Below are positions 1,276 to 15,555 of a DNA stretch of 64,000 bases, one piece after another. Source of the DNA: an uncultured Alphaproteobacteria bacterium (GTDB lineage Bacteria; Pseudomonadota; Alphaproteobacteria; Caulobacterales; Hyphomonadaceae); assembly GCA_903831255.1 (NCBI GenBank), contig CAIKWZ010000013.1, positions 124,001-188,000 of the forward strand, given 5' to 3'. The stretch's first letter is position 1. The number at the start of each line of letters is the position of its first letter. A model generated the notes under the pieces. It saw only the letters and a program-made list of their open reading frames with translations. It made no database searches and was not told where the DNA came from. The position numbers were made by a program, and so were the translations under genes.

Positions 1276-1332
1276 CGCCCCACCATCCGATGCACGCCGT
1301 TACCTTGGAATGGGAACAGGGCCTTTCTCATC

Positions 1333-1346
1333 TTGATCAGGGTCAA
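1333..1346. promoter_or_regulatory. FNR/FixK/Dnr-type box upstream of the acyl-CoA synthetase
   Basis: The sequence TTGAT-CAGG-GTCAA matches the TTGAY-N4-GTCAA pattern of the CRP/FNR superfamily regulators FixK, Dnr and FnrL. It lies 57 bp upstream of the plus-strand start at 1403 and 58 bp upstream of the divergent minus-strand start at 1275. Two comparable boxes occur in the same island. The regulator itself is not encoded in this window. Confidence 0.6.
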
Positions 1347-1402
1347 TCCGATGGTCGGTCCATGACGATTAGTCCACGAGATCCAGGTATCTCAGGAGCG
1401 AC

Positions 1403-4045
1403 ATGACAACGCAAAATCTGCAGGCGCTCTTCGATCCTGTCTCAGTGGCCCTGGTCGGCGCCAGCGGCAGGGAAGGATCGGTAGGCGCCATTCTCGCCCG
1501 AAATCTGCTTTCAGGCGGGTTCAGGGGGATCGTTCATCTCATAAACCCAAATGCGCAGACGATAGAGGGCCGTCCCTGTCTGTCCTCAGTATCGGCGCTC
1601 CCCGGTCCGATTGATCTGGCGGTTGTGGCGACGCCTGCACCTGGCTTACCTCAGCTGATTGAGCAATTGGCCTCGCGGGGCTGTCGTTGTGCAATTGTGA
1701 TCTCGGCTGGCCTCGAACCTGAAGCGGCCGACGCCATGGTGTCTTCTGCTCAGACTTCAGGTCTTCGCATTCTTGGACCCAACTGTCTCGGCATGCTGTC
1801 TCCAGGCATTGGTCTCAATCTGAGCTTCAGTCACACTTCGCCTAAGCCGGGGTCGATCGCATTTCTCACCCAATCAGGAGCCATCGCAACGTCAATGATC
1901 GACTGGGCGCGCTCGAAGGACGTGGGCTTCTCCCGTATCGTGTCCCTTGGAGACATGCGCGATATCGACTTCGGCGATCTTCTCGACCATCTGGACGAAG
2001 ATAAAGCGACGTCATCCATCCTGATCTACGCGGAGACCATCACCTCGGCCCGCAAATTCGTCGCGGCCGGTCGCAAAACAGGTCGTCACAAGCCGATATT
2101 CATCCTGAAGGCGGGACGCAGTCATGCAGGGGCGCTCGCTGCGGCCTCCCACACCGGGGCGATGGCTGGCGCCGATGCTGTGCACGACGCGGTCTTCCCC
2201 CGCGCCGGGATGGTGCGAATCGATACTCTTCGTGATCTCTACGGGGTCGCGCTGGCCTTATCCCTCTCGATGAAGCGCGCATCGTCCGCCCTGACGATCG
2301 TGACGAACGGCGGCGGACTTGGAGTTCTGGCGGCAGACGCCTCCGCAGCCGCAGGGTTGAGCCTTCCGCCTCTGTCCAGCGCAACCATCGCCAGCCTCGA
2401 CGATCTGATGCCCCGGTCGTGGTCGCACGCCAATCCGATCGACATTCTCGGCGATGCTCATGCAGATCGCTATGACGCCGCAGTGCGTGCGGTCGCCGAC
2501 CAGGGATCCGACGCCTCGCTTCTCATCATGAACTGTCCCACGGGGGTCGCAGATCGGGAAGACGCCTCGCGAAAAGTCGCGAGCCTCAGGCGGAACTACG
2601 CCGGCGGGACGTGGATGTCATGCTGGACGGGCGAGGAAAGCGTTGGTCCATCAGGCAGACTGCTCGGTTCAGCCGGGATTGCGAATTTTGATACGCCCGA
2701 GGAGGCTGTCCGCGCCATTGAGCTTGTGGGCCTGCGATCTCGAGTTCTCGAGCTCAGCAGCCATACGCCGCCTCCGGCGCTCCGTCGGGACCCCTGCCGA
2801 TCCGCGAACGCCGGCGCCATTATTGAACGTGCGATGCAAGACGGGCGGACCACCCTCACCGAGGCCGAGGCAAAAGCCATACTCGACCTATTCGAAGTCC
2901 CCGTCAGCAAGGTCATGACAGCTCCAACGCCGGAGCTCGCCGCGCGGGCGGCGGCGGAAATCGGATTTCCCGTCGTTCTCAAGATCCTTTCGAGAGATGT
3001 CTCCCACAAGTCGGATGTCGGCGGCGTTCGCCTCGGACTGAGCAGCGCAAAGGAGACCCAAACGGCGGCGGAGGAGATGCTCGTCACCCTGTCCCAAAAG
3101 GCGGCAAACGCGAGAATTGAGGGCTTCACCATCCAGGCGATGATCCGCAAGCCCCTCGGCCATGAGATCATCATCGGGGCCGTCAGGGACCGGGCGTTTG
3201 GGCCGTGTCTTATGGTGGGTCAGGGAGGGGTCTCCACAGAGATTGTTCATGACCGGTCCCTCGGTCTTGCGCCGATCGATCGGGAGATGGGTCTCGAAAT
3301 GATTGCAAGAACGCGGATATCCCGATTGCTGGCCGGCTTTCGCCATGTCCCACCCGCCAGAACCGATGCGATCGCCGATGCTCTGTGCGCTTTGGGCGAC
3401 CTCATGATCTCCTGCCCCGAGATAGCAGAAATCGATGTCAATCCGCTTCTGGTCGATGCTGAGGGCGCTGTCGGCCTTGATGCACGTATTCGCCTGGGAG
3501 CGCCCGATGATCTTCGGCCCACACCCAGCGCAATCGTCCCGTGGCCAGAGGAGTTAGGCCGCACCCTCTCGGAGGCCGGGAGTGAGGTCACTGTTCGCGC
3601 CAGCCGTGTGAAGGATCTGGACCGGATTGTGACGTTCGATGGGGACTGGGTCTTCGACCCGGTGAGCGCCGGATCTCATACCTCTCTCGGCGCTTCCCCT
3701 TTCGAATCTTCCCGCCATGATGACTATTATCGGGAGGCGACGTTCCTGGCCTTTGGAAGCGGAGACCGCCTCCTTGGGGTCGGGCGAGTTCAGATCTCTC
3801 CCGAACGAGACCTGGCCCGGCATGATCTGAAGGCGGTCCCCGACTGTAGACAAACCATTCGCCAAGCCCTCGTTCGCGCATGCCTGCAATTCGCCAGCAG
3901 CCATGGCCTGAGCCAGCTTATTACCCTGACGGCCTCCGAAGGACCCGGCCGTCTGCTTGCCGACAGCCTCGGCGCCCGATATCAGCAGGCTGATGGGCTC
4001 CCGACAAACCTGATCGGGTTCATCCCCCTTCAGAGTGCGAGTTGA
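1403..4045 (+). CDS. Pat-like bifunctional acyl-CoA synthetase (ADP-forming) / GNAT domain protein
   Basis: An 880-residue protein with the architecture of the Salmonella Pat/YfiQ family. It has a CoA-binding Rossmann domain (about 8-130, starting DPVSVALVGASGREGSVG), succinyl-CoA-ligase-like domains (about 150-440), an ATP-grasp domain (about 480-700, with FPVVLKIL and HKSDVGGVRLGL) and a C-terminal GNAT-like domain (about 725-880). Family members either acetylate proteins such as acetyl-CoA synthetase or make acyl-CoA with ATP. The motif ASHTGAMAG keeps a histidine (about H250) at the position used for phosphoryl transfer in active ADP-forming synthetases. The GNAT acetyl-CoA loop lacks the usual glycines. 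It may therefore work as a ligase rather than as a protein acetyltransferase. The DUF4010 gene follows 14 bp downstream. Cytoplasmic. Confidence 0.85.
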   Translation: MTTQNLQALFDPVSVALVGASGREGSVGAILARNLLSGGFRGIVHLINPNAQTIEGRPCLSSVSALPGPIDLAVVATPAPGLPQLIEQLASRGCRCAIVISAGLEPEAADAMVSSAQTSGLRILGPNCLGMLSPGIGLNLSFSHTSPKPGSIAFLTQSGAIATSMIDWARSKDVGFSRIVSLGDMRDIDFGDLLDHLDEDKATSSILIYAETITSARKFVAAGRKTGRHKPIFILKAGRSHAGALAAASHTGAMAGADAVHDAVFPRAGMVRIDTLRDLYGVALALSLSMKRASSALTIVTNGGGLGVLAADASAAAGLSLPPLSSATIASLDDLMPRSWSHANPIDILGDAHADRYDAAVRAVADQGSDASLLIMNCPTGVADREDASRKVASLRRNYAGGTWMSCWTGEESVGPSGRLLGSAGIANFDTPEEAVRAIELVGLRSRVLELSSHTPPPALRRDPCRSANAGAIIERAMQDGRTTLTEAEAKAILDLFEVPVSKVMTAPTPELAARAAAEIGFPVVLKILSRDVSHKSDVGGVRLGLSSAKETQTAAEEMLVTLSQKAANARIEGFTIQAMIRKPLGHEIIIGAVRDRAFGPCLMVGQGGVSTEIVHDRSLGLAPIDREMGLEMIARTRISRLLAGFRHVPPARTDAIADALCALGDLMISCPEIAEIDVNPLLVDAEGAVGLDARIRLGAPDDLRPTPSAIVPWPEELGRTLSEAGSEVTVRASRVKDLDRIVTFDGDWVFDPVSAGSHTSLGASPFESSRHDDYYREATFLAFGSGDRLLGVGRVQISPERDLARHDLKAVPDCRQTIRQALVRACLQFASSHGLSQLITLTASEGPGRLLADSLGARYQQADGLPTNLIGFIPLQSAS

Positions 4046-4059
4046 CCTAAGGCGCGACC

Positions 4060-5349
4060 ATGCTGAACCAGTTCGCTGCAGTCCCGGAAGATCTTCTCGG
4101 TCTGGCTCAGCGCCTCGGGCTTGCGATCGCGATCGGCTTTCTCGTCGGCGTGGAGCGAGGGTGGAAGCAGCGACATGAGGCGGACGGAGCGCGCGTCGCC
4201 GGCCTGCGAACCTTCACCTTGTCCGGCTGTCTGGGGGGGCTCTCGGGAGCTCTGTTCCCTCTGGTGGGCCCTCTACCGACGGCCGCGCTAATTCTCGCTT
4301 TCGCGGCGACATTCGTTGTTTTTCACCTCAAGCACGCCGAAGCGGACAAAGACGCTTCTGCAACGTCGGTTATCGCCGGACTGCTGGTGTTCGCGCTTGG
4401 ACTCTACGCCGTGGTCGGAAATCCCGTCGCGGCCTCTGGCGCCGGGGTCGCCACGGCAGGAATTCTGGCCTTCAAAGACGCCCTGCATGGCTGGCTCCGA
4501 CGTCTGACATGGCCTGAAATACGTTCGGCCTTTCTCATTCTCGTAGCCACCTTCATCGCCCTTCCCCTGCTCCCGTCCGCGCCGATCGATCCATGGGGCG
4601 CGGTGAACCCCAGATCATTGTGGATGCTCACGATTCTGGTCGCTGTGGCCTCCTTCGGGGGCTACGCAGCCTTAAGGGCCCTTGGTCCCTCCTCGGGCCT
4701 GATCGCGGGAGCGATCGCAGGATCAATCGTTTCCTCAACCGCTGTGACCCTCGACGTCGCGCGGCGGGCTCACGCGGAACAAATCTCGACCTCTCAGGGT
4801 CTTCTCGCGGCCGCCCTTGCCTCAATTGTTATGATTGTTCGCGTCTGCCTGCTGACAGGAACGTTCTCCAGTCAGGCGCTGATGATGATTGCGCCTGCGG
4901 CTGCAGCCGCTGCCACCGTATTTGCGTTGACAGCCATTGGGGCCCTAATCCGGCATTCCGAGCCAGATGGGCGCACCGGATATGAAGCCATACACAGTCC
5001 CCTCGATCTTCGTGAGATAGGCCGCTTCGCACTTCTCCTGTGCACTGCGACCGTGTTGGCGAAAATCATCGCCGCCAACTTCGGATCTGCGGGACTGACA
5101 GCCTTCGCCGCCACCGCAGGGCTGGTGGACGTCGACGCCGTGACGCTGGCGGTCGCCGACCTCGTCCGCGCAGGCGGCGGGGCGGAGCAGGCTGCCGCAG
5201 CGATCCTCATTGCTGCAGGATCAAATACGATGTTCAAGGTCGTCGCAGCCTCGATCCCGGGACGCAGTCGCTTCCGCTTCTTGTTTTTCGGGATCAGCCT
5301 CGCAGCTCTCCTGGCAGGCGCGTCAGCCTGGCAAATCTTCACAGGATGA
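4060..5349 (+). CDS. DUF4010 / MgtC-like multi-pass membrane protein
   Basis: A 429-residue, very hydrophobic protein with roughly twelve membrane segments. The N-terminal 100 residues resemble the MgtC/SapB membrane domain (AIAIGFLVGVERGWKQRH, then an Arg-Thr-Phe turn and a Gly-rich helix). The remainder fits the DUF4010 family. In MgtC-type proteins this domain is linked to magnesium homeostasis or acid/intracellular survival, but the biochemical activity of DUF4010 proteins is not established. The gene starts 14 bp after the acyl-CoA synthetase stop and is almost certainly co-transcribed with it. The family call is fairly firm; the substrate or role is unknown. Confidence 0.8.
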   Translation: MLNQFAAVPEDLLGLAQRLGLAIAIGFLVGVERGWKQRHEADGARVAGLRTFTLSGCLGGLSGALFPLVGPLPTAALILAFAATFVVFHLKHAEADKDASATSVIAGLLVFALGLYAVVGNPVAASGAGVATAGILAFKDALHGWLRRLTWPEIRSAFLILVATFIALPLLPSAPIDPWGAVNPRSLWMLTILVAVASFGGYAALRALGPSSGLIAGAIAGSIVSSTAVTLDVARRAHAEQISTSQGLLAAALASIVMIVRVCLLTGTFSSQALMMIAPAAAAAATVFALTAIGALIRHSEPDGRTGYEAIHSPLDLREIGRFALLLCTATVLAKIIAANFGSAGLTAFAATAGLVDVDAVTLAVADLVRAGGGAEQAAAAILIAAGSNTMFKVVAASIPGRSRFRFLFFGISLAALLAGASAWQIFTG

Positions 5350-5383
5350 CCCAGGTGAGGCCAATCCGGCCACACAAGGCAGG

Positions 5384-5425
5384 TTGACACACGTCAACAC
5401 TTATCCCGACCGCGGAGCCTATCTC
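5384..5425 (+). promoter_or_regulatory. FNR/FixK-type box with a -10-like element
   Basis: TTGAC-ACAC-GTCAA at 5384-5397 is a perfect palindrome of the FNR/FixK type. A TATCTC element at 5420-5425 lies at the distance expected for a class II promoter, where the box is centred near -41.5. Transcription would then start close to 5432, about 80 bases before the proposed lipoprotein start. The TTG inside the box is in frame with the downstream gene but is unlikely to be its start. Confidence 0.6.
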
Positions 5426-5512
5426 CCCTTGGTGCAGGGAGCGAACAGGGCGAGCAGCCCGTCATTCTCTCCTCGAGCAGCAGTCTGGCGGACGGCGGGG
5501 CGGGAGATCTCA

Positions 5513-7285
5513 TTGGACGGATCAGGAGTAAGCCACCTTCGAGGCGCAGGCGGGACTGGCCTTCTGCTGGCGCTTTTTCTTTCAACGTCCTGCACAAGCG
5601 CGCCCCCGTCCCAAATCGACGCGCTTCATCTCGATATCGCGGACTGCTACAGAGACATTGAAGTCACCGCGCCCCCGGACGTTGCAGAAGCGGTCTGCTC
5701 CCGGGCCCTCAGCGCCTCAAGCATAGATATTCAATCCTATGCGTTTGCAAACCTTCATCTTGGCGAGGCGCGACTTCGTTCCAAGTCGTATGACCGAGCC
5801 GCAGAGCCGCTGCGACTTGCAGCGGAGCTTTTTGCCGGACGGTCGACTGGCGCCCGCCGGCGCGCTCTTCACGACCTTGCCCAGGCCCTATCTGGCTCAC
5901 TCAAATCTCCGGAGGCGATCGCAGCTCTTGATGAGGCGCTTCAGCTGCCTGGCCCAAGAACGCATATTCTGTTCGATCGCGCAGAGGCGATGCTCGCGAG
6001 TGGTCGCGTTGTGGAGGCGAGCGCCGACTTTCGATCCGTGATCGCCGGCGCTCGACGCACTGATGCGGGCGAGAAGCATCTCGCCGCCCGCGCGGGCGTC
6101 CATCTGGGTGATCTCGCTCTTCAGGAATCAACGCCGGAAAGCCTGCAGAGGGCCAAAGAGGCCTTTGAGGCAGCGAGGCGAGACGACCCTGACAGTCCGA
6201 GTGCGGCTACCGGACTGGGCCGAACCAGCCTCGCCCTTGCGGGCCTCTCCTCGGATGGCCCATCGGCTTCCGATCACCTTTCCGACGCCCTGCGAGCCTT
6301 CGAACTGGCCGAGCGGCTCGCCCCGCAGGACTCCGTTCCGGTCGCAGGTTCCGGACGCACGCTGATTCGCATGGGGCGGCTGGAAGAAGGCGCCCGTCGT
6401 TTGCAGCGCGCCCTCGAGCTGTCGCCCGACAGTATCCCTCTGCTGGTCGAGATTTCACGCGCTCTTGCAAGTTCCGGCCGACTTGCGGAAGCGGAGACGC
6501 CCCTGCAGCGAGCCCTCATACTTGCTCCTCCGGACGCCGCCCTGCGGGTCGAGCTCGCGCGTATCCAGCTTGCTCAGGGACGCCCCGATGACGCTCTGAT
6601 CAGTTTCGAGGGCGCCGCGCGCCTCGATCCCAGTCTGGCATCCTCGTTCCTCGGTGTCGGAAGCATATTGTTCAATAAAGGCTCGGCGCACTTTCCTGCC
6701 GCCCGGACGCAGCTGCTTGAGGCTGAACGGCTAGCCTCCCGCGGCCGAGATACCCCAACTCGCGGACAGGCCCTTTACTTTCTTAGTCGGATCGAGACCG
6801 AGGGCTCTGCGTCCCCGCAGACCGCCGCCATCCGCCTGGCGGATGAAGCGGTATCGATCGACGGCCGAAATGGAGAGTATCGAGCTCAGGCATGCCTCGC
6901 CCGTATTCGGCTCCTGGACAAGGCGCGGGCGGGTTCACTCGGCGATACATCAGGTGTCTGCGCAGCTGCGGGAGCGGGCTCCCCCGCCCAGGCAAAACTC
7001 TTATCCGGCCTTCATCAACTTCGCCTCGCCCACTTTGCAAACGGCGATGACCGCAAGCGACGCTGGGAGAGCGCCTACAAATCGTTCTCCGAGGGGCTGG
7101 AAGGTCTCGGCGCCCCGGATAGCGAGGGAGGCCGGCAGCTGAAGTCCCGGCTCGAGATGGGTCAGGGGATGGCTTACTACTGCATAGGCTTCGCCGAAAT
7201 CGGTCGGCAAATGATGGAGCGCTCCGACAAGGAGGCGCGCGCCTTCTATGACACCTATCATGTCGCTCGGTGCAGCGACTACTGA
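5513..7285 (+). CDS. TPR-repeat lipoprotein
   Basis: I place the start at the TTG at 5513, which has GGGAG at 5502-5506 and gives a compact lipoprotein signal: a short charged N-terminus, a GLLLALFLSTS core and the lipobox cysteine at about residue 27. The mature part of the 590-residue product is a long array of helical TPR-like units (pattern A..LG.A.L....P). It includes a typical tandem TPR block at about 330-440 (LAPQDSVPVAGSGRTLIRMG and following). Such proteins are usually scaffolds on the inner face of the outer membrane or the outer face of the inner membrane. It is the first gene of a likely three-gene operon with the membrane protein at 7325 and the ATP-grasp protein at 8299. No enzymatic motif is seen and its partner is unknown. 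Confidence 0.75.
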   Translation: MDGSGVSHLRGAGGTGLLLALFLSTSCTSAPPSQIDALHLDIADCYRDIEVTAPPDVAEAVCSRALSASSIDIQSYAFANLHLGEARLRSKSYDRAAEPLRLAAELFAGRSTGARRRALHDLAQALSGSLKSPEAIAALDEALQLPGPRTHILFDRAEAMLASGRVVEASADFRSVIAGARRTDAGEKHLAARAGVHLGDLALQESTPESLQRAKEAFEAARRDDPDSPSAATGLGRTSLALAGLSSDGPSASDHLSDALRAFELAERLAPQDSVPVAGSGRTLIRMGRLEEGARRLQRALELSPDSIPLLVEISRALASSGRLAEAETPLQRALILAPPDAALRVELARIQLAQGRPDDALISFEGAARLDPSLASSFLGVGSILFNKGSAHFPAARTQLLEAERLASRGRDTPTRGQALYFLSRIETEGSASPQTAAIRLADEAVSIDGRNGEYRAQACLARIRLLDKARAGSLGDTSGVCAAAGAGSPAQAKLLSGLHQLRLAHFANGDDRKRRWESAYKSFSEGLEGLGAPDSEGGRQLKSRLEMGQGMAYYCIGFAEIGRQMMERSDKEARAFYDTYHVARCSDY

Positions 7286-7324
7286 TGCAGATGATCACAG
7301 GTCCGACCCGGGAGCGACCAAATC

Positions 7325-8164
7325 ATGATGAAGCCTAACGATTATTCGCGGGACAGGCAGAGAGCTCTGGACATCGAGGTCAGAATTCCGGCGTCGGGTC
7401 AGCAGCCCCCTGTGTGGGCGACCCGTCCGGACGAAGCCGGGCGATGGATCGTCGAACTTGCGGAATACGCTTTTCGGGAGGCCTTCGACGGGACGGTCAC
7501 GCCCGGACATGCCTATGCCGAAGCAGACGCCTTCGTTCAGTACCTGACGGCGATGGCCCATCCGACAGCCGCTAACAGGGAGGTGATCCGCGGGGATCTC
7601 AGAAGCCTGGTCAGCCGCCTTGAACATGACCTCTCAATCAAATTCGACTGCGGACAGCAGCGGCCATCGGTCAGCCTCGATCCCGACAGATCGTTTCTGG
7701 GGCACGAAACGTACCTTCCCGCTCGCCATGCGGGGGATCCTGCCTCCAACGGGGGACAGACCACCCTTCATATGCTTGAGGGACACAATAATGGATCCCC
7801 GGATAGCAACTCTCATCTGCCTCCCGAGGGTCGCCAGACAGGATCGGCTCTTATGTGGACCGGCGCCTGCCTTGGCGGGGCCCTGATTGCAGCCGCGTTT
7901 CTGGGTTGGAATGTCGTCGAGCTCAGAGAGGAGGTTCGGCAGACCCGTGACCTTCAGGCGACGGTCAATCGCCTTACAACCGACATGCGATTGCTCAGTT
8001 CGGCACGGTCCTTCGAGACGATGGAATGTCAGCGCTCCATTCGCGAGCACCGGACCATGATCACAAATCTCGCAAAACAGTGCACGCCCAAACAACCAGC
8101 GCCAACCCCGCCAGCTCCGCCGGCCCCTTACCCTAACTCTCCAGATCCGTTCGCCCCACGCTAA
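7325..8164 (+). CDS. Hypothetical single-pass membrane protein
   Basis: A 279-residue protein of no family I can name. Residues about 1-110 form a soluble region with Trp and acidic residues (WATRPDEAGRWIVELAEYAF). Residues 110-172 are polar and low in complexity. One membrane helix lies at about 174-195 (MWTGACLGGALIAAAFLGWN), followed by a short coiled-coil-like segment (about 196-245) and a Pro-rich tail. A possible topology is a cytoplasmic N-terminus with a periplasmic coiled coil and tail. It starts 39 bp after the TPR lipoprotein stop. The ATP-grasp gene follows 134 bp later, so the three probably act together. Its function is unknown. Confidence 0.6.
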   Translation: MMKPNDYSRDRQRALDIEVRIPASGQQPPVWATRPDEAGRWIVELAEYAFREAFDGTVTPGHAYAEADAFVQYLTAMAHPTAANREVIRGDLRSLVSRLEHDLSIKFDCGQQRPSVSLDPDRSFLGHETYLPARHAGDPASNGGQTTLHMLEGHNNGSPDSNSHLPPEGRQTGSALMWTGACLGGALIAAAFLGWNVVELREEVRQTRDLQATVNRLTTDMRLLSSARSFETMECQRSIREHRTMITNLAKQCTPKQPAPTPPAPPAPYPNSPDPFAPR

Positions 8165-8298
8165 AAGGCCGCCCACATCCCCGCAGCCGTCGCTGGTCTC
8201 TAAAAGTCTAGTTTCTGCTCTCGTCAGACCTGGGGAAGAGCGCTATGGGCGGTCTCCAGACATCCTCTCCAGCGGCGTGACAGACCTGAAAGGCGGAT

Positions 8299-9591
8299 AT
8301 GGAGACCGGACCGCCCAAGGCCGACCGTTCAGGCCCGGAGCTCAGAGCGGCGTCTCTGAACCTCGACTGCTTTTGTGAAACCCTCGACACCCGTCAGCTG
8401 GCCCTGGAGCTGGCGAGGGAAAGCGGGGATCCGGACTTCTACCAGGTCCATGTCGCCAGGCGGCCGCATCTGCTTTCCGGTGTGCCGGTGTTCGCTCCCC
8501 AATCAGCGCGCGACGCCATGCTGGAGACGATCACGGCCATCGAGGCGGTGGTTCGAACGCCCTCCTTTCAGGCTCGGGCACTCGAAAACACAGATATCCG
8601 CCTTGTTCGGGATCGTGGCCCGGTCGGGGTCTTTATGGGCTATGACTTCCATCTTCACGACGGACCGCCGAAACTTATCGAGATCAACACCAACGCAGGA
8701 GGCGCCTTCCTCAATGCCGCCAGCGCGCGCGCTCATAAGGCCTGTTGCGCGGAAATGGATCCCGCTTTGAACGAGGTCTGGTCCGAAGCGTTCGAAGAGA
8801 ACGTGATGGGAATGTTCCGTCAGGAGTGGGTGCGATCGGGCAGACTTCCGGAAGACCTTCAGCGCATCGCCATCGTCGATGATGATCCGTCCGGTCAGTT
8901 CCTCTATCCTGAGTTCCTGCTCGCCCGAAAACTCTTCGAACGGCATGGCGTCGAGGCCATGGTCATCGATCCCTCCGACCTGCAAGTAGACGCTACCGGC
9001 CTTACTGCAGGCGGCGTCCGCGTCGATCTGGTCTACAATCGCCTGACAGACTTCTCACTGAGCGAACCACGCCATGCCGTTCTGAGACGCGCATTGCTCG
9101 ATGACTGTGTGGCGATCACCCCGGATCCACGCGCGCATGCCCTCTATGCTGATAAACGCAATCTAGCCCTCCTCTCAGACCCAGAGTTCGGTTCAGACCT
9201 GAACGTCGAGGATCGACTGCGTTCCGCCTTGTCGACTATCCCCCGCGCCGTCCTCGTGACCCCTGAGACCTCTCAGGATCTGTGGCGGAGACGAGGGCAA
9301 GTGTTTTTCAAGCCCATATCGGGATACGGGGGCAAAGCTGTCTATCGCGGCGACAAAATCACCCGGCGGGTCTGGGAAGACATACTCCAGACCCCCTATA
9401 TCGCGCAGGATCTTGCCGCGCCGGGTGAAAGACGCATGCTGGTGGAGGGTGCGACCGTTGAACGGAAGATGGATGTGCGCATCTATACATATGACGGCGC
9501 CCCCCTCCTTGCGGCAGCCCGGCTCTACCAGGGTCAGACAACGAATTTCAGAACACCCGGGGGCGGTTTCGCACCGGTGTTTTTCGTCTGA
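8299..9591 (+). CDS. ATP-grasp-like enzyme with apparently permuted motif order
   Basis: A 430-residue protein with ATP-grasp signatures in an unusual order. The metal-binding element that normally ends the fold (PKLIEINTNAGGAFLNAA) is at about 133-150. The nucleotide-binding element (VFFKPISGYGGKAVYRGDKI) comes later, at about 336-355. It is followed by an ERKMDVRIYTYDG strand at about 390-402 and a terminal Gly-rich TTNFRTPGGGFAPVFF motif. This resembles circularly permuted ATP-grasp families. The family forms carbon-nitrogen bonds by way of acyl phosphates, but the substrate cannot be told from sequence. It is probably the last gene of the operon that begins with the TPR lipoprotein. That it is an ATP-grasp protein is likely; the exact reaction is unknown. 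Confidence 0.7.
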   Translation: METGPPKADRSGPELRAASLNLDCFCETLDTRQLALELARESGDPDFYQVHVARRPHLLSGVPVFAPQSARDAMLETITAIEAVVRTPSFQARALENTDIRLVRDRGPVGVFMGYDFHLHDGPPKLIEINTNAGGAFLNAASARAHKACCAEMDPALNEVWSEAFEENVMGMFRQEWVRSGRLPEDLQRIAIVDDDPSGQFLYPEFLLARKLFERHGVEAMVIDPSDLQVDATGLTAGGVRVDLVYNRLTDFSLSEPRHAVLRRALLDDCVAITPDPRAHALYADKRNLALLSDPEFGSDLNVEDRLRSALSTIPRAVLVTPETSQDLWRRRGQVFFKPISGYGGKAVYRGDKITRRVWEDILQTPYIAQDLAAPGERRMLVEGATVERKMDVRIYTYDGAPLLAAARLYQGQTTNFRTPGGGFAPVFFV

Positions 9592-9628
9592 CACCAGCCT
9601 TCCCTCCACTTGCCCTGCGTCGGAGCGG

Positions 9629-10837
9629 TCAGCCGAGAGGCGTCAGATTATTGCGGCCGATCGCCCCGATGCGCGTCACGCCTGCCTGTTGCATGACTGA
9701 CCGAAGTTCTTCGTCCATAATGTTCAGGACCGCCTCGACGCCCTCGGACCCGAATGCGGATAGTCCCCAGATGTAAGGGCGCCCCACACAGACGGCGCTG
9801 GCGCCAAGAGCCAGCGCCTTGAAAACGTCCGTCCCCCGGCGGATGCCGCCATCCAACAGAAGTGGAACACGGCGATTGATCTTTTCTGCAATGGCCGGCA
9901 GGGCGTCGAGAGTGCCAACCAGGCTCTCCTCGGCCCTGCCGCCGTGATTTGAAACGATGAGCCCGTCAGCGCCATAGGCAAGCGCCATCTCAGCGTCCTC
10001 AGGGGTCATGATCCCCTTCACGAGAACCTTCTTGTCGGTCCAATCCCGAAGGCGACGGATAAACTCCCAGGTCAGGGACGGATTGTTCAATGTCCTGGCT
10101 TCCCCGAGATCAAAGCGGTCGAACATCGCCTTACGCCTCACGAGATCGGCAAAGCCCGCCGAACGATCGTGACAGGAAGAACAGTCTCCCGGATCCATTC
10201 TGGCGAGACGTTCCTGCGTCTCCCGCCTCATACCGCCGGACAGGAGATCAGCGGTGAACACGATCGCGCTGGCTCCCGCTCTGTCAGCACGCGTCACCAG
10301 GGCCTTTGCGATGTCCATGTCATTCGTCGGATAAAGCTGAAACCAGATCGGACCCTGTCGATCTGCGATGACTGTTTCGATCGAGATATTGGTCATCGTA
10401 GAGAGTATCTGCAGCGCGCCGCGCGACCGAGCCGCTCGCGCCACAGGCCGCTCCGCCTCATGATGATAGGCACGCTGGCTCGCTACAGGGGCGAGGACCA
10501 CGGGAGACGCCCACGTCTCGCCGAGAAGCTTCGTAGTCAGATCTATTCTGGATACATCGATGAGACGACGGGCCCGGATTCCCCAGTTCCGGTAGGCCGC
10601 TCGGTTGGCGTCAATCGTACCGTCGTCAAGAACGCCCGTCTGAAGATAGCCGAAATGGGCCGGGCGCATGGTCCGTTCCGCAATCGGCAGAAAGTCAGAA
10701 ACATTCAACGCTTCCTTCGCCTCGAGGATATCCCGCGGCGAAACGCGGAGCGTTTGGGCCAGCGCTGCTCCTGAAATACCTCCCGCAGCCGCGCCGAGCG
10801 TCAGAAAGCGGAGGAAGCGTCTTCTGTAAGGATCCAC
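9629..10837 (-). CDS. FMN-dependent alpha-hydroxy-acid oxidase/dehydrogenase, Tat-exported, with CxxCH motif
   Basis: A member of the lactate oxidase / glycolate oxidase / LldD family, which oxidises L-2-hydroxy acids to 2-oxo acids with FMN. The start is placed at the GTG at 10837, preceded by GGAGAGG, giving 402 residues. The N-terminus then reads YRRRFLRFLTLGAAAGG and has an AQ cleavage-like end, a good twin-arginine signal. The catalytic signature SNHGGR and the phosphate-binding DGGIRRGTDVFKALALGA segment are intact. An extra CSSCH sequence (about Cys219-His223 from this start) sits in the variable loop before the catalytic region and could bind haem c. An upstream in-frame start at 10885 is possible but weaker. 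The gene is divergent from ftsH. Confidence 0.85.
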   Translation of the reverse strand: MDPYRRRFLRFLTLGAAAGGISGAALAQTLRVSPRDILEAKEALNVSDFLPIAERTMRPAHFGYLQTGVLDDGTIDANRAAYRNWGIRARRLIDVSRIDLTTKLLGETWASPVVLAPVASQRAYHHEAERPVARAARSRGALQILSTMTNISIETVIADRQGPIWFQLYPTNDMDIAKALVTRADRAGASAIVFTADLLSGGMRRETQERLARMDPGDCSSCHDRSAGFADLVRRKAMFDRFDLGEARTLNNPSLTWEFIRRLRDWTDKKVLVKGIMTPEDAEMALAYGADGLIVSNHGGRAEESLVGTLDALPAIAEKINRRVPLLLDGGIRRGTDVFKALALGASAVCVGRPYIWGLSAFGSEGVEAVLNIMDEELRSVMQQAGVTRIGAIGRNNLTPLG

Positions 10838-11012
10838 AATCGGCCTCTCCACCTGCGCTCTCCAACGCTCCGGCAAGCATCGCACCCCAAGCCGAGCGCG
10901 CGCAAATCGCGAAGACCTTTTCTCACGAGGCTCAGCTTCACGATGCGGGCCAACAAATCAAGATGGCCTCCGAAACAGAAGACGCATCAGGTTTTTGTGT
11001 AACCGCCTCCAG

Positions 11013-11026
11013 TTGACCTGACGCAA
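11013..11026. promoter_or_regulatory. Degenerate FNR/FixK-like box between the hydroxy-acid oxidase and ftsH genes
   Basis: TTGAC-CTGA-CGCAA keeps the left half-site and the TTG-N8-CAA core, but the right half deviates from GTCAA. It lies in the 223-bp divergent region. The match is weaker than the sites at 1333, 5384 and 13548 and is credible mainly because of them. Confidence 0.3.
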
Positions 11027-11060
11027 GACCAAGTCGGATCAAACAAAGGCCTATGGAGGC

Positions 11061-13010
11061 ATGGCTCTGCAAGCGTCCTCCGATCCTCGCCGCCGTCGTC
11101 AACCCAACCTCCCCTCATCTGATCCCTCCCAGGAGAGGGAGGGGGGGCTGGGGGTGTGGCTGATTATTGGGGCGGTTGCAGCTTTGTGGCTTCTCCCGGC
11201 GGCGCTGTCGCTTCTCAATCCCGTCCAGACGATCTCCTACGATACGTTTGAAAACTGGCTGAAGTCGGACCGCATTCAGAGCGTACGCGTGACGCCCGAC
11301 CGCATCGAGGGAACCGCAAAGGGAGCCAAAGGAGGAGAGGCTGAGGAAGAGTTCCTGACGCTTCGGGTCGATCCTGACCTCGCCAGGCAGTTCATCGACC
11401 GGGGAGTTCGGGTGGAGGGAGCCCCCTCCTCCGGCCTCCTGACGCGTATCCTTGGCTGGGTCGCGCCTGCGCTGATCTTCTATCTCGTTCTGATGCTTCT
11501 CAGCGCCCGTGCAGGCGGCGGCGGAGGGATCGCCAGCTACCTGTCCGTTGGACGTTCCCCAGCGAAACTCTATCGCGATACTGGATCAACGGTCGCATTT
11601 GACGACATAGCCGGGGTCGACGAGGCGAAGGCCGAGCTCCGTGAAGTTGTTGAGTTTCTGAAAAATCCGAAAGCGTTCGGCCGCCTGGGCGCCCGGTCGC
11701 CTAAGGGAATTCTTCTTGTGGGCCCTCCAGGAACCGGCAAGACCCTGATGGCCCGCGCCGTGGCTGGCGAAGCCGGAGTTCCTTTCTTCTCCATTTCGGG
11801 GTCGGAATTCGTTGAGATGTTTGTAGGGGTCGGCGCTGCGCGTGTCCGAGACCTTTTTGAGCAGGCGCGGCGTGCAGCTCCGAGCATCATCTTCATCGAC
11901 GAGCTGGATGCTCTGGGCCGTGCACGAGGCAGCGTCTTTATCGGCGGCTACGATGAGAAGGAACAGACGCTAAACCAGCTACTTGCCGAGATCGACGGCT
12001 TTGATCCAAGCTCAGGGGTAATTCTGCTGGCAGCCACCAATCGTCCTGAGATCCTCGACAAGGCTCTTCTACGAGCCGGGCGCTTTGACCGTCAGGTTCT
12101 CGTCGATCGTCCCGATCAGGGGGGACGACTGGCCATTTTGAAGGTTCACGCACGCAAGATCCGTCTGGCGCCGGACATGGATCTCGAGGCCGTCGCAGGC
12201 CTTACAACGGGATTTGTAGGCGCCGATCTCGCCAATCTCGTCAATGAGGCTGCAATCGCCGCCACACGACGAAGCGGAACGTTCGTCACCCTTGCCGACT
12301 TCGAGACTGCAATCGAGCGCATCGTCGCCGGCATCGAGAAACGCAGCCGAGTGCTTCGGCCCTCAGAGCGAAAGCGCGTCGCTGTTCATGAAATGGGACA
12401 TGCTCTGGTGGCGTCCGACCTCCCATCGGTCGATCCTGTTCAGAAGGTCTCGATCATTCCCAGAGGGCTCGGGGCCCTCGGCTACACCCTGCAACGCCCG
12501 TCGGAGGAGCGCTTCGTGCTCTCCCGTACCGATCTTGAAGAGCGACTGGCCGTTCTCCTCGGAGGACGGGCCGCTGAAGCCCTCGTGTATCACGAGGATG
12601 TCTCGACAGGAGCCGCTGACGACCTTCAGCATGCAACACAGATCGCCCTGGACATGGTCGAGCGCTATGGCATGACCGCTGAGATCGGCGAGCGCAGCCT
12701 GGCCTCCAAAGCCGATTCCCTCGCCAGTCCGTTTCCCGGCATGTCAGGAGCTTCTCAGGATACGCAGAGAGATGTCGACCTGGCGGTTCGAAAGCTCCTT
12801 CACAAGGCATCCGAAACGGCAGAGGGCATTCTCAGACGTCGTCGGCCCGACCTTGATCAGGGCGTGGAGCTCCTCCTTCGCAGCGAGACACTCAACGCAT
12901 CCCAGTTCCCGGCGCTCCTGAAGCGATCCGAAGCGAGGCCCCCTTCACCATCCGGACAAGCCGCAAACTCCAGCGCGACAGCTGCGCTCATCTCTTCGGG
13001 GGCATCATAA
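11061..13010 (+). CDS. ftsH: FtsH/Yme1-type ATP-dependent zinc metalloprotease (accessory copy)
   Basis: A 649-residue membrane AAA protease. Two membrane segments (about 31-53 and 126-148) flank a short periplasmic domain. The AAA module has Walker A GPPGTGKT (about 221-228), Walker B IIFIDE (about 276-281) and the arginine-finger region LLRAGRFDR. The zinc site reads HEMGH (about 443-447), where housekeeping FtsH usually has HEAGH, with a downstream Asp-rich segment supplying the third ligand. It degrades misassembled or unneeded membrane and cytosolic proteins. The neighbours (BON protein, universal stress protein, acyl-CoA synthetase) and the divergent motif suggest a second, stress-dedicated FtsH. 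An AAAGG lies 12 bases upstream of the ATG; a GGAGG directly abuts it. Confidence 0.9.
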
Positions 13011-13021
13011 ATGAACAGCGC

Positions 13022-13498
13022 CTATGTGGGCGTCTGTCCGGATCCTGCTCCGGCAACGGGCCATTGCCTGTCGATCCGATCGATCTGATCGAGAAGCTGC
13101 TCAAGACGGCGGCTCAGGCTGACAGCGTCGGAGCTAAAGACAGCGGCTGCTTCGTCAAGGCCAAAGTCCAGCGCGGACACCAGGAACAGCGCGCCTCTCA
13201 CGTCATCGGGCGCGATACGAAAGGGGCCTGTCGACGTTTCGGAAATCACCTTCGCCGCCTCGACCAGTCCAAGGCCGGCAGGTCCCGATCGGGCGGACGG
13301 GGCTGCCTCGACAATTGCCTGGAAGACTCGTGATCTCTTGATCGCGGATCGCTCGCTTTCACCATCGTTCCGACCCTGATCCAGACTGGCAAGACAGGTC
13401 TCAACAAAGGACGGCGCCTTGCAGGTCGGAACACCCAGAACAGATGCAAACGCCATCAGCTCCGTTGTAGCGGTTTCAGATCTCCATGCTTCCATCAT
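13022..13498 (-). CDS. Hypothetical protein
   Basis: A 158-residue, predominantly helical, soluble protein without recognisable domain, signal sequence or membrane segment. The C-terminal part (about 115-150: DEAAAVFSSDAVSLSRRLEQ and following) looks amphipathic. It is transcribed divergently from the BON-domain gene, and an FNR/FixK-type box (13548-13561) lies between them. Its 3' end lies close to the convergent ftsH stop (11 bp). It probably belongs to the same stress regulon; no function can be assigned. Confidence 0.55.
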   Translation of the reverse strand: MMEAWRSETATTELMAFASVLGVPTCKAPSFVETCLASLDQGRNDGESERSAIKRSRVFQAIVEAAPSARSGPAGLGLVEAAKVISETSTGPFRIAPDDVRGALFLVSALDFGLDEAAAVFSSDAVSLSRRLEQLLDQIDRIDRQWPVAGAGSGQTPT

Positions 13499-13547
13499 GT
13501 CACACCTCCACTCTCATTTTCCTTTCGCATGTCCGGCCCGTTCAAAG

Positions 13548-13561
13548 TTGATGAATGTCAA
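13548..13561. promoter_or_regulatory. FNR/FixK/Dnr-type box between divergent genes
   Basis: TTGAT-GAAT-GTCAA is a full match to the TTGAY-N4-GTCAA pattern. It is 49 bp upstream of the minus-strand hypothetical gene start and 71 bp upstream of the BON-domain gene start, so it could serve either or both. Confidence 0.6.
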
Positions 13562-13632
13562 CGCATGTCAGCCGGCATGAGAGAGAGTGCGAAGGCCGCA
13601 GTGTCCGCGGCTCCAACACTGGAGATACCGAC

Positions 13633-14280
13633 ATGGACGACAAGACAATCAAGACCCTGGTCATGGATGAATTGGAATGGGAGCCGTCCATAGACTCCAA
13701 TGATATCGGCGTGGCCGTTCAGGACGGAATCGTGAAGCTTTCCGGGTTTGTCGCCAACTACGCTCAGAAGCTGGATGCGGAAACCGCCGTCAAGCGCGTC
13801 AAAGGCGTCAGGGGTTATGTCGAGGATCTTGAGGTCAGACCCTTCGCACAGCCCTTTACCGATGAAGCTCTGGCGACGCGTATCGCCAATGTTATCGACT
13901 GGGACACGACCATCCCGAAAGGTCAGATCAAGGCCAAGGTCGAAAAGGGCTATGTCACGCTCAGCGGCCAGGTGGAGTGGCAGTATCAGCGCACAGCCGC
14001 GGAGAATGTCGTCCGTCCGCTTCAGGGCGTTCGCGGCGTCAGTAACCAGGTCACCGTCAAGGCCCGGGTTCAGGCGAATGATGTCAAAAAACGTATCGAA
14101 GACGCTCTGGCCCGTCAGGCGGAACTCGAGGCGTCTAAAATCCGGGTGACGATCGATGGCGGAAAGGTGCGCCTCGATGGAAAGGTAAGGGCGTGGTTCG
14201 AACGTGACCTTGCGGAGCGGGCAGCCTGGGCGGCGCCAGGCGTCACGATGGTGGAGGACAATGTCTCCGTCGGCCTCTGA
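13633..14280 (+). CDS. Triple BON-domain protein (OsmY-like)
   Basis: The start is placed at the ATG at 13633, with GGAGAT just upstream; a longer in-frame extension to 13555 would run back to the FNR-type box. The product is 215 residues and consists of three consecutive BON domains (about 1-70, 77-145 and 147-215). Each begins with a short helix and ends in a VKGVRGV.N or equivalent strand. BON domains bind phospholipid surfaces and occur in osmotic-shock proteins such as OsmY. No signal peptide is visible, so it is probably cytoplasmic, as with many BON proteins of stress clusters. A 10-bp hairpin follows 10 nt after the stop. Confidence 0.85.
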   Translation: MDDKTIKTLVMDELEWEPSIDSNDIGVAVQDGIVKLSGFVANYAQKLDAETAVKRVKGVRGYVEDLEVRPFAQPFTDEALATRIANVIDWDTTIPKGQIKAKVEKGYVTLSGQVEWQYQRTAAENVVRPLQGVRGVSNQVTVKARVQANDVKKRIEDALARQAELEASKIRVTIDGGKVRLDGKVRAWFERDLAERAAWAAPGVTMVEDNVSVGL

Positions 14281-14289
14281 CGGATGACC

Positions 14290-14315
14290 GGAGGCCGCCT
14301 GAAAGGGCGGCCTCC
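14290..14315. terminator. Hairpin between convergent BON and universal stress protein genes
   Basis: A perfect 10-bp inverted repeat (GGAGGCCGCC / GGCGGCCTCC, loop TGAAAG) begins 10 nt after the BON gene stop and lies in the gap between convergent genes. There is no clear T-tract, so it may end transcription weakly or mainly protect the 3' end. Confidence 0.5.
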
Positions 14316-14468
14316 CTCGTCGGCCAGGGAACCTGCTCCTGCCAGCCCTGGCGCCTCGGGGCTCCATGACCGCCGTCCTGCTCAAGCAGGGGCGCCGCAG
14401 GCGCCGATGGAAGGTTTCGCGACGCCGTCCCTTCACGTCCCGGCGAGGCTCGCCGTCTCAATGAGATC

Positions 14469-15317
14469 TCAATGAGAGAAGCAAACCGCAAGACGTGTCG
14501 TCTGCAGGATTTTTCGGGTCACGCCCCCCATCAAGCGCTCACGCCAGGGCGAACGACCAAACGCGCCCATCACGATCAGATCGGCTCCAAATCCGTCAGC
14601 TGTGCTCAGGATACCTTCGGCCACTCCATCGGAAGTCGCCGGACATTCCGGCCCCTCAATCTTCACGCCATGCCGTGACAGGTGAGTGCACAATCGAAGA
14701 AGGCCGCCATTATCAGTTCCATCCAGTCTGTCCTCCGGTCCGGAGTGCATGACGAGAACAGCCTGCGCCCGGATCAACAGCGGCAGGGCGTCATGCGCCG
14801 CCCGGGACGCTTCTCGGGATCCGTTCCAGCACAGAAGAATTCTCTTGCCGATCATCGACCATCCTGGACGCCGGGGAAGCATGAGACATGGACGACCCGA
14901 CCCCATCAAACCGCCTGTGAGAACACTCTCGTCCAGCGACGCGCCATCCCCGTCGGCTGGCTGACCAAAGATCAGGAGATCGCTGCTGCGCGCCAGCGAC
15001 GCAACCAGTCGCGAGACGTCGGCATGAGGGGCCTCAAGGACGCTTATCGCGCGTCGGGAGTGTGAAGGAGCGTCGCCCTCTTCAAGGGCTTCCATCAACC
15101 GACCAGCGTCGTCTCTTGCCAACCGTCGCGCCTGCTCGTGCGCGTCCGCCATTGCGGGAGATCCGCCCCCTACCGTCATGGCGGTCATCTCCGCTATGAC
15201 GCACACGGACAGATCCGCCTCGGAAGCAGAGGCGATTTCGCCAGCACATACCGCCCGTGCGATCCCACTGTCCGTTCCATCCGCGAACACCAGGATATCT
15301 CTCCAGACCATCGGCAC
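14469..15317 (-). CDS. Tandem universal stress protein (UspA family)
   Basis: A 282-residue protein made of two Usp domains (about 1-150 and 155-282). The second carries a near-canonical ATP-binding signature, GAFGRSPWRERLMGGVTRKIL in outline (G-x2-G-x9-G-x-[ST]), and begins with the usual KRILLCWNGSREA strand. The first domain lacks this signature. Tandem Usp proteins with one ATP-binding half are common in stress clusters and respond to hypoxia or starvation, but their molecular target is generally unknown. The gene is divergent from the cyclase-family gene. A TTG-N8-CAA element at 15374-15387 lies 57 bp upstream. Confidence 0.85.
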   Translation of the reverse strand: MPMVWRDILVFADGTDSGIARAVCAGEIASASEADLSVCVIAEMTAMTVGGGSPAMADAHEQARRLARDDAGRLMEALEEGDAPSHSRRAISVLEAPHADVSRLVASLARSSDLLIFGQPADGDGASLDESVLTGGLMGSGRPCLMLPRRPGWSMIGKRILLCWNGSREASRAAHDALPLLIRAQAVLVMHSGPEDRLDGTDNGGLLRLCTHLSRHGVKIEGPECPATSDGVAEGILSTADGFGADLIVMGAFGRSPWRERLMGGVTRKILQTTRLAVCFSH

Positions 15318-15373
15318 ACCTCTCCACGAATTGGCGCAGGGAAGCCTTCTATTCCCTGACGGAATAGCTGGCC

Positions 15374-15387
15374 TTGCGATCGAACAA
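15374..15387. promoter_or_regulatory. Weak FNR-like TTG-N8-CAA element
   Basis: Only the outer core of an FNR/FixK box is kept (TTGCG-ATCG-AACAA). It lies in the 238-bp divergent gap between the universal stress protein and cyclase genes. Such a core is expected by chance now and then; I report it because stronger boxes occur in the same island. Confidence 0.2.
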
Positions 15388-15555
15388 GCGGATCGCGCTC
15401 TCTGCTTCGGTCCTGCGCGGATGATTCTGAGGCTTCCGCTGATTGCAATTCAGCCTCACGCTTCTGGATTGAAGGTCTGCAGGATGTCGGGCAAAGTCGC
15501 CGTCCTGAGGCAGTCGACGACATTCGGCTGGCCATCCTCGTCCGGAGCATGCCGA

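Follow-up and report, generated by a model that had tools for sequence, protein, structure and literature searches.

The described system closest to the locus analysed here is the hFixL-FxkR-FixK cascade of Rhizobium etli and R. leguminosarum (PMC7888657, PMC4999443), for which a K-box with the consensus GTTACA-N4-GTTACA has been given (PMC4999443, PMC7888657). The locus is an island of stress genes in the genome of an uncultured member of the Hyphomonadaceae (GenBank assembly GCA_903831255.1, here G000; 3,321,201 bases in 76 contigs), which extends across the left border of a 64,000-nucleotide stretch of contig CAIKWZ010000013.1 (C13:124001-188000; hereafter the window, with positions counted from its first letter) and carries repeated copies of the box TTGAY-N4-RTCAA (TTGAYNNNNRTCAA). 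Clustered stress genes are known from the lxa (low-oxygen-activated) locus of Burkholderia cenocepacia, a 50-gene cluster with six genes for universal stress proteins (Usp) that has been tied to anoxic persistence and compared with DosR, and for which a FixK/Anr-like regulator has been proposed (PMC6127331, PMC9104464). In Bradyrhizobium diazoefficiens, two of the four Usp rows seen in Table 2 of PMC6515984 are direct FixK2 targets, and a CBS-domain gene and the cbb3 oxidase genes fixO and fixP also belong to the direct targets. A comparison of alphaproteobacterial FNR/FixK/DNR regulons places Hsp20 under FixK and UspA under FNR, and reports variable extended regulons as well as some species in which a regulator is retained but its core regulon is missing (PMC2908626). 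Single genes of the same kind have been connected to FnrN proteins with cysteines in Sphingopyxis granuli, where nrdZ, coding for an oxygen-independent ribonucleotide reductase, is lower in an fnr mutant (PMC7713065), and in R. leguminosarum, where a gene for a small heat-shock protein (sHSP) is FnrN-dependent and has an anaerobox (PMC11784457); the parts of these two papers considered here describe no clustered island.

Like the Rhizobium cascade, the G000 system comprises a hybrid kinase with a FixL-like PAS domain, an OmpR-type regulator, a FixK without an N-terminal cysteine cluster, a K-box-like direct repeat before fixK and the anaerobox TTGAT-N4-ATCAA at the targets. It differs in that kinase, OmpR-type regulator and FixK are encoded together within 3 kb and no cbb3 operon was found, in that the halves of the K-box-like repeat read GTCACA in the genus instead of GTTACA, in that FixK is 32% identical over 190 residues to the FixK-like protein of R. 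etli p42f, and in that the response regulator is a candidate orthologue of FxkR at most. Like the lxa locus, the island groups Usp genes with heat-shock and BON genes, a resemblance in gene content only, but it is smaller (about 25 kb, with 20 called genes and two Usp genes, one of them boxed, as against 50 genes and six Usp). Usp genes are among the putative targets here as in the FixK2 regulon of Bradyrhizobium, whereas cbb3, targeted there, was not found; the island does not figure in the general FNR/FixK/DNR comparison, as far as the consulted part of PMC2908626 goes. We consider it probable that the boxes are operators of a single FixK-type activator which, under a kinase/OmpR-type relay, switches on an island for survival at low oxygen.

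A scan of the whole 3.32-Mb genome finds 17 sites that match TTGAYNNNNRTCAA and, as a control, none that match the reversed pattern. Eight of the 17 sites fall within 23 kb (C13:114809-137561), five to the left of the window and three inside it. The latter three had been reported in a first-pass annotation of the window as TTGAY-N4-GTCAA, and all of them are present on the plus strand: TTGATCAGGGTCAA at C13:125333 (window 1333..1346), TTGACACACGTCAA at C13:129384 (window 5384..5397) and TTGATGAATGTCAA at C13:137548 (window 13548..13561). That three matches exceed chance was rightly judged, since the window expectation is 0.10 (standard deviation 0.36) and none of 100 dinucleotide shuffles reaches the count; nor does the remainder of the window (15556-64000) contain an exact site, as had been noted. 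The boxes are indeed clustered, but the 15 kb assigned to the island were too few, boxes being found up to about 9 kb to the left of the window. An origin of the cluster by chance or as a compositional artefact could be argued from the exact N4 sites outside the island, which are no commoner than those with other spacers; it is nevertheless scarcely credible, given that between C13:114781 and 139555 the N4 spacer yields eight sites while the 12 others in the range N0 to N12 yield none at all, that under uniform placement the probability of 8 of 17 sites in any stretch of equal width is bounded at about 1e-10, and that the boxes are conserved in a sister species (G014) despite divergence at third codon positions. 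It is the cluster of sites, and not the number outside the island, that is beyond chance.

Seven of the eight island sites are intergenic, that is, between called genes, and uncalled DNA makes up 10-12% of the island; the eighth, before the DUF2267 gene, lies inside a weak open reading frame (ORF) call of 144 amino acids that has no Pfam hit and is not called in G014. Start codons are approximate because genes were called with a simple codon-bias script. For seven of the eight boxes the centre is 59.5-104.5 bp before the called start, at distances conserved in G014: 83.5 bp before NrdJ (C13:114809), 60.5 bp before the gene for a 104-residue protein (C13:117934), 59.5 bp before Usp (C13:118966), 76.5 bp before Hsp20 (C13:119605), 104.5 bp before DUF2267 (C13:122732), 63.5 bp before an acyl-CoA synthetase gene (TTGATCAGGGTCAA, the distance being equal in G014) and 78.5 bp before the BON gene, between it and orf158 (TTGATGAATGTCAA, identical in G014). 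The remaining box (TTGACACACGTCAA, likewise identical in G014) is centred 122.5 bp before the called, uncertain start of the TPR gene and 60.5 bp before it in G014.

In the sister species the order of the genes is preserved from NrdJ as far as BON, at which point the contig stops, and all eight boxes are present, while their flanks have diverged. Over the eight island pairs and the pair at the kinase locus described below, 116 of 126 box bases are identical and the TTGA and TCAA columns are unchanged in nine of nine, whereas the same pairs agree at 190 of 360 upstream and 243 of 360 downstream bases of the 40-bp flanks. Third codon positions are only 51-81% identical (computed for 10 of 13 gene pairs), so G014 is not a near-identical strain. 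The BON protein is unchanged despite 65 third-position changes, and the other island proteins are 67-97% identical. In total G014 has 20 box sites, and from these and a comparison of ten neighbourhoods 14 of the 17 sites of G000 have a partner at the orthologous place; among the 17 compared, none was found for those at C13:8362 and on C55 and C61. The genome scan returned nearly half of the sites from one 23-kb stretch, but also conserved sites on other contigs: at the kinase locus, in the ctrA-fliI gap (where it overlaps the start of a 197-amino-acid ORF), at a small-gene locus on C25, and at F0 ATP synthase, dodecin-like and TonB-receptor genes.

A single convincing CRP/FNR gene was found in G000 by HTH_Crp_2 profile search (E 3.3e-16; L027:6924-7628), on another contig than the island. 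With its product as query, G000 and G014 each give one match at E <= 0.001. The protein matches FNR-type and FixK2 structures (E about 1e-20), and its recognition helix reads LETVSR, aligned to VETISR in FNR and LETVSR in FixK2, which fits the ExxSR motif for TTGAT-N4-ATCAA. It is without the N-terminal cysteine cluster of FnrN/FNR, Cys2 being the only cysteine in the first 90 residues. The best NCBIfam model is a FixK equivalog that names one clade (Caulobacterales) and does not define FixK proteins in general; as the score of 115.5 bits stays below the cut-off of 300, we call the protein FixK-type and do not assign it to that equivalog. Of the FNR/FixK/Dnr-type control suggested in the first-pass annotation, the FixK part is supported; neither an FNR (Fe-S) nor a Dnr protein was found in G000 by the profile and query searches at the thresholds used, and with the one CRP/FNR protein found devoid of the FNR cysteine cluster we rejected an FNR or Dnr/NO reading. 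Two weaker HTH_Crp_2 hits were set aside, their frames looking ArsR-like and Lrp-like by eye.

The regulator search also located, beside fixK, genes for an OmpR-type response regulator (L027:6022-6804) and a PAS-kinase-receiver hybrid kinase with HisKA, HATPase and receiver domains (L027:4476-6014). FixL structures are the closest match of the PAS domain (E 1.5e-27), which retains the GRxxTG motif and a histidine that is presumably the haem ligand, as in FixL. Of 2603 matches of the kinase in plasmid records, the 15 listed are all from Rhizobium; it is 46% identical over 499 residues to a kinase of R. etli CFN 42 plasmid p42f, whose gene comes after a FixK-like one in the vicinity of cco genes, and the G000 FixK is 32% identical to that FixK-like protein over 190 residues. 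The response regulator is 42% identical to RHE_RS29195 of p42f, which we take to be FxkR from its position, and 28% identical to CtrA. About 110 bp before fixK lies a direct repeat (GTGACAAAGTGTGACA) with 2 of 12 mismatches to the Rhizobium K-box consensus, an exact copy of which (GTTACACACTGTTACA) was found by pattern scan 101 bp before R. etli fixK. Among 12 fixK promoters scored, G006 being left out, G014 also has 2 mismatches, six (G001, G002, G007, G008, G010, G020) have 3 and four (G005, G011, G012, G013) have 4, as against 4-6 in a control of 300 stretches of 260 bp drawn at random from locus L016; eight of the 12 promoters hence beat every control.

The clustering, the spacer specificity, the conservation in G014 and the FixK-type regulator beside a FixL-like PAS kinase make control of the stress island by the CRP/FNR family well supported, in agreement with the first-pass annotation. 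From the domains and operators we infer the following course. As oxygen falls, the hybrid kinase would become active through its FixL-like haem PAS domain and would pass phosphate to the adjoining OmpR-type regulator, whose binding to the K-box-like repeat would raise FixK. FixK, which probably acts as a class II activator, would then bind the TTGAY-N4-RTCAA sites and would switch on the class II ribonucleotide reductase and SDR, the 104-residue protein, Usp, Hsp20 and the DUF2267 protein, and likewise the synthetase with the MgtC/DUF4010 protein, the TPR genes and the BON protein, so that the island would serve survival in microoxia or anoxia. At a class II promoter the -10 element is expected at bases 22-27 behind the box; an A+T peak lies at these bases in both G000 and G014, and of the 54 offsets scored for a -10-like match, 22-23 comes out best in G000 but not in G014.

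Low oxygen appears to be the likeliest signal. That the FixK sites are real but serve another signal (redox, NO or growth arrest), or that FixK represses at some of them, is unlikely in our estimation, although FixK-type proteins carry no Fe-S sensor, so that the signal depends on the upstream parts, oxidation control of FixK2 has been reported in Bradyrhizobium (PMC9104804), and two box distances are odd, namely about 175 bp at the kinase and the 122.5 bp to the called TPR start. Against this alternative stand the FixL-like PAS domain of the kinase with its presumed haem histidine, the rhizobial hybrid kinases as nearest listed plasmid matches and the conserved distances of seven of the eight island boxes.

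Several results weigh against a FixK-type relay at low oxygen as set out above. Genome-wide, the pattern with spacers N1-N9 has 81 matches, 17 of them with N4, while the other eight spacers average 8; the nine exact sites outside the island are therefore a background number and need separate support. In G014, -10-like offsets 50 and 53 score equal to or better than 22-23. Four of the 12 fixK promoters are no better than random stretches for the K-box, and in G001, G005, G008 and G020 the stretch examined around fixK is free of boxes. The 15 best listed plasmid regulators, which come from several genera and are in several cases non-rhizobial, are 44-50% identical to the response regulator and so exceed the presumed FxkR, which leaves it a candidate FxkR orthologue. 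The box at the kinase locus is closer to a divergent small-gene/Usp operon (64 bp) than to the kinase (about 175 bp), which makes FixK feedback on the kinase doubtful. A wider survey covered the best 80 among the named synthetase loci listed (1.41 Mb), with 53 occurrences of the N4 pattern and 1-10 of each other spacer from N0 to N10, but a box stands at most 300 bp upstream of the synthetase gene in only 11 of 79 loci (one of the 80 having no upstream sequence), other spacers giving 0-3 of 79. Classic targets are few as well, there being no cbb3, a box at cytochrome bd in G000 (between cydA and a CydD-like gene) with no CydA match in G014, and hemN not having been searched for. Finally, the pattern scan of the window found no exact box before the genes for FtsH, the FMN hydroxy-acid oxidase and the second Usp.

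The last point bears on the extent of the regulon. The first-pass annotation had placed boxes next to all of the named genes, which holds for the synthetase, TPR and BON genes but not for the FtsH-type protease (window 11154..13010, with a second start candidate at 11061, plus strand; Pfam, and NCBIfam FtsH_fam above cut-off), the FMN-dependent alpha-hydroxy-acid dehydrogenase/oxidase (9629..10852, minus strand; Pfam, with NCBIfam hits below cut-off) and the second Usp (14469..15311, minus strand; Pfam), whose membership is unproven. Whether only promoters with a box form the regulon, with FtsH, the FMN oxidase, the second Usp and a cyclase as unrelated neighbours, is in our judgement evenly balanced; such a limit is compatible with FixK-type control and narrows its scope. 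It is favoured by the lack of exact boxes at those genes and by the density of sites with 2 and 3 mismatches, which is about that of the background, and disfavoured by the conserved gene order from NrdJ to BON, by a block conserved in G014 before FtsH, and by the occurrence of Usp genes in the lxa locus and among the FixK2 targets listed in the sources cited. Two weaker relatives of the box had also been claimed, both on the plus strand. The one at window 11013..11026 has 2 mismatches and is not distinguishable from background, although 13 of its 14 bases are equal in G014, and the one at 15374..15387, with 3 mismatches, is rejected; as the density of sites with 2 mismatches is 6.05 per 10 kb inside the island and 9.29 per 10 kb in the remaining window, and thus no higher inside, neither is supported as a member of the regulon. 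With at most one mismatch the pattern is met at 213 places in the genome, the reversed pattern at 81, and one-mismatch sites were not used. The block at window 11010-11050 (TTGACYTGACGCAAGACC), common to both species, may be a promoter or a degenerate site.

The least expected result is that no cbb3 was found although fixK is retained. A fixK orthologue at least 54% identical is present in 12 of 60 relatives, and in the search for CcoN of cbb3 11 of these 12 have it, while it was found neither in G014 nor in G000, both drafts with an estimated completeness of 99-100%; the one COX1-family gene of G000 is a CtaD/CoxA. In plasmid records CoxA and ATP synthase subunit a of G000 reach at best 71% and 54% identity, to Rhizobiales entries, a slight hint that the organism lies outside the Rhizobiaceae, and its CtrA passes a Rhodobacterales model, as befits an alphaproteobacterium. 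Among three genus members without a close fixK orthologue, CcoN is present in G009, reduced to a fragment in G004 and not found in G003. In G010, G011 and G012 fixK lies among Usp genes with boxes, in G010 also with BON, SDR and synthetase genes, and in other members of the genus it lies near genes of cbb3-operon sizes, where CcoN is located. Between G000 and G014 FixK has changed at 1 of 234 residues, as against 44 of 235 third positions. Because cbb3 was not found in the two species, FixK appears to serve mainly the stress island, and the relay seems to have persisted beyond the oxidase that it usually controls. We propose, tentatively, that an hFixL-type oxygen-sensing kinase, an OmpR-type relay and FixK no longer work in conjunction with the high-affinity oxidase, that cbb3 has been lost, and that FixK may be kept under strong constraint mainly for a compact island for dormancy or anoxic survival, which in an alphaproteobacterium would be the functional counterpart of the DosR regulon of mycobacteria. 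The parts are known, and their combination with the loss of cbb3 seems new; among the literature titles listed, none concerns an island of this kind controlled by a FixK cascade in a genome lacking cbb3. The locus is a compact case of oxygen-regulon rewiring, in which kinase, relay, regulator and operators can be listed in a small genome with one CRP/FNR protein found. If the relay is true, the cascade, placed in the Rhizobiaceae by PMC4999443, extends to another alphaproteobacterial group, and the range of lxa-like survival islands is widened by one in which FixK has been kept after the loss of its classic oxidase target.

To the left of the window the island contains, in this order, genes for NrdJ (a class II ribonucleotide reductase above the TIGR02504 cut-off), an SDR, the 104-residue protein, Usp, Hsp20, a P-type cation ATPase, a DUF2267 protein and small unknowns. 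The first gene in the window codes for an 880-residue, Pat-like ADP-forming acyl-CoA synthetase (1403..4045, plus strand; CoA-binding and ATP-grasp domains by Pfam), of which residues 2-857 align with the Pat-like protein acetyltransferase of PDB 9it0 with the SHTG motif kept. Its last 180 residues have no Pfam hit while the homologue in G010 has a GNAT domain, and the acetyltransferase part may be degenerate here. Of 60 relatives, 7 have a high-scoring orthologue and an eighth has a partial one at 33%. A gene for an MgtC/DUF4010 membrane protein (4060..5349, plus strand; Pfam) follows 15 bp behind and probably forms one operon with it. Also on the plus strand are the TPR gene (5513..7285; gene call and Pfam) and two called genes without a Pfam family above cut-off, for proteins of 279 residues (7325..8164; 92% identical in G014) and 430 residues (8299..9591). 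Beyond FtsH lie the gene for a 158-residue protein (13022..13498, minus strand; gene call, no Pfam hit), divergent from the BON gene, and the latter, coding for a triple-BON-domain protein of 215 residues (13633..14280, plus strand; Pfam) that is identical in G014.

Horizontal import of the island was considered and is not claimed, the indications being a slightly lower G+C (0.603-0.614 as against 0.622-0.629) and the patchy distribution of the synthetase. Directly to its left are the galactose genes GH36, GH42, galK and galT (L017:4425-10777); galT is called with 240 amino acids in G000 and a 341-amino-acid gene stands at its place in G014, which may be an effect of the gene caller. Among the conserved sites on other contigs, an exact box at L022:4985 (C33:97284), identical in G014, precedes F0 ATP synthase genes (atpI-like, atpB), so that oxygen control of the ATP synthase is possible, and a conserved box at L023:5044 (C42:13943) lies about 50 bp before a dodecin-like gene of 66 codons that is below the NCBIfam cut-off. 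In plasmid records, an SDR gene next to a P-type ATPase gene is found elsewhere, in Agrobacterium also near Usp genes; plasmid pDG3-1g of Agrobacterium salinitolerans (L184:16100-23407) has two Usp genes near to genes for an antiporter, the SDR and a P-type ATPase, an arrangement that resembles one part of the island.

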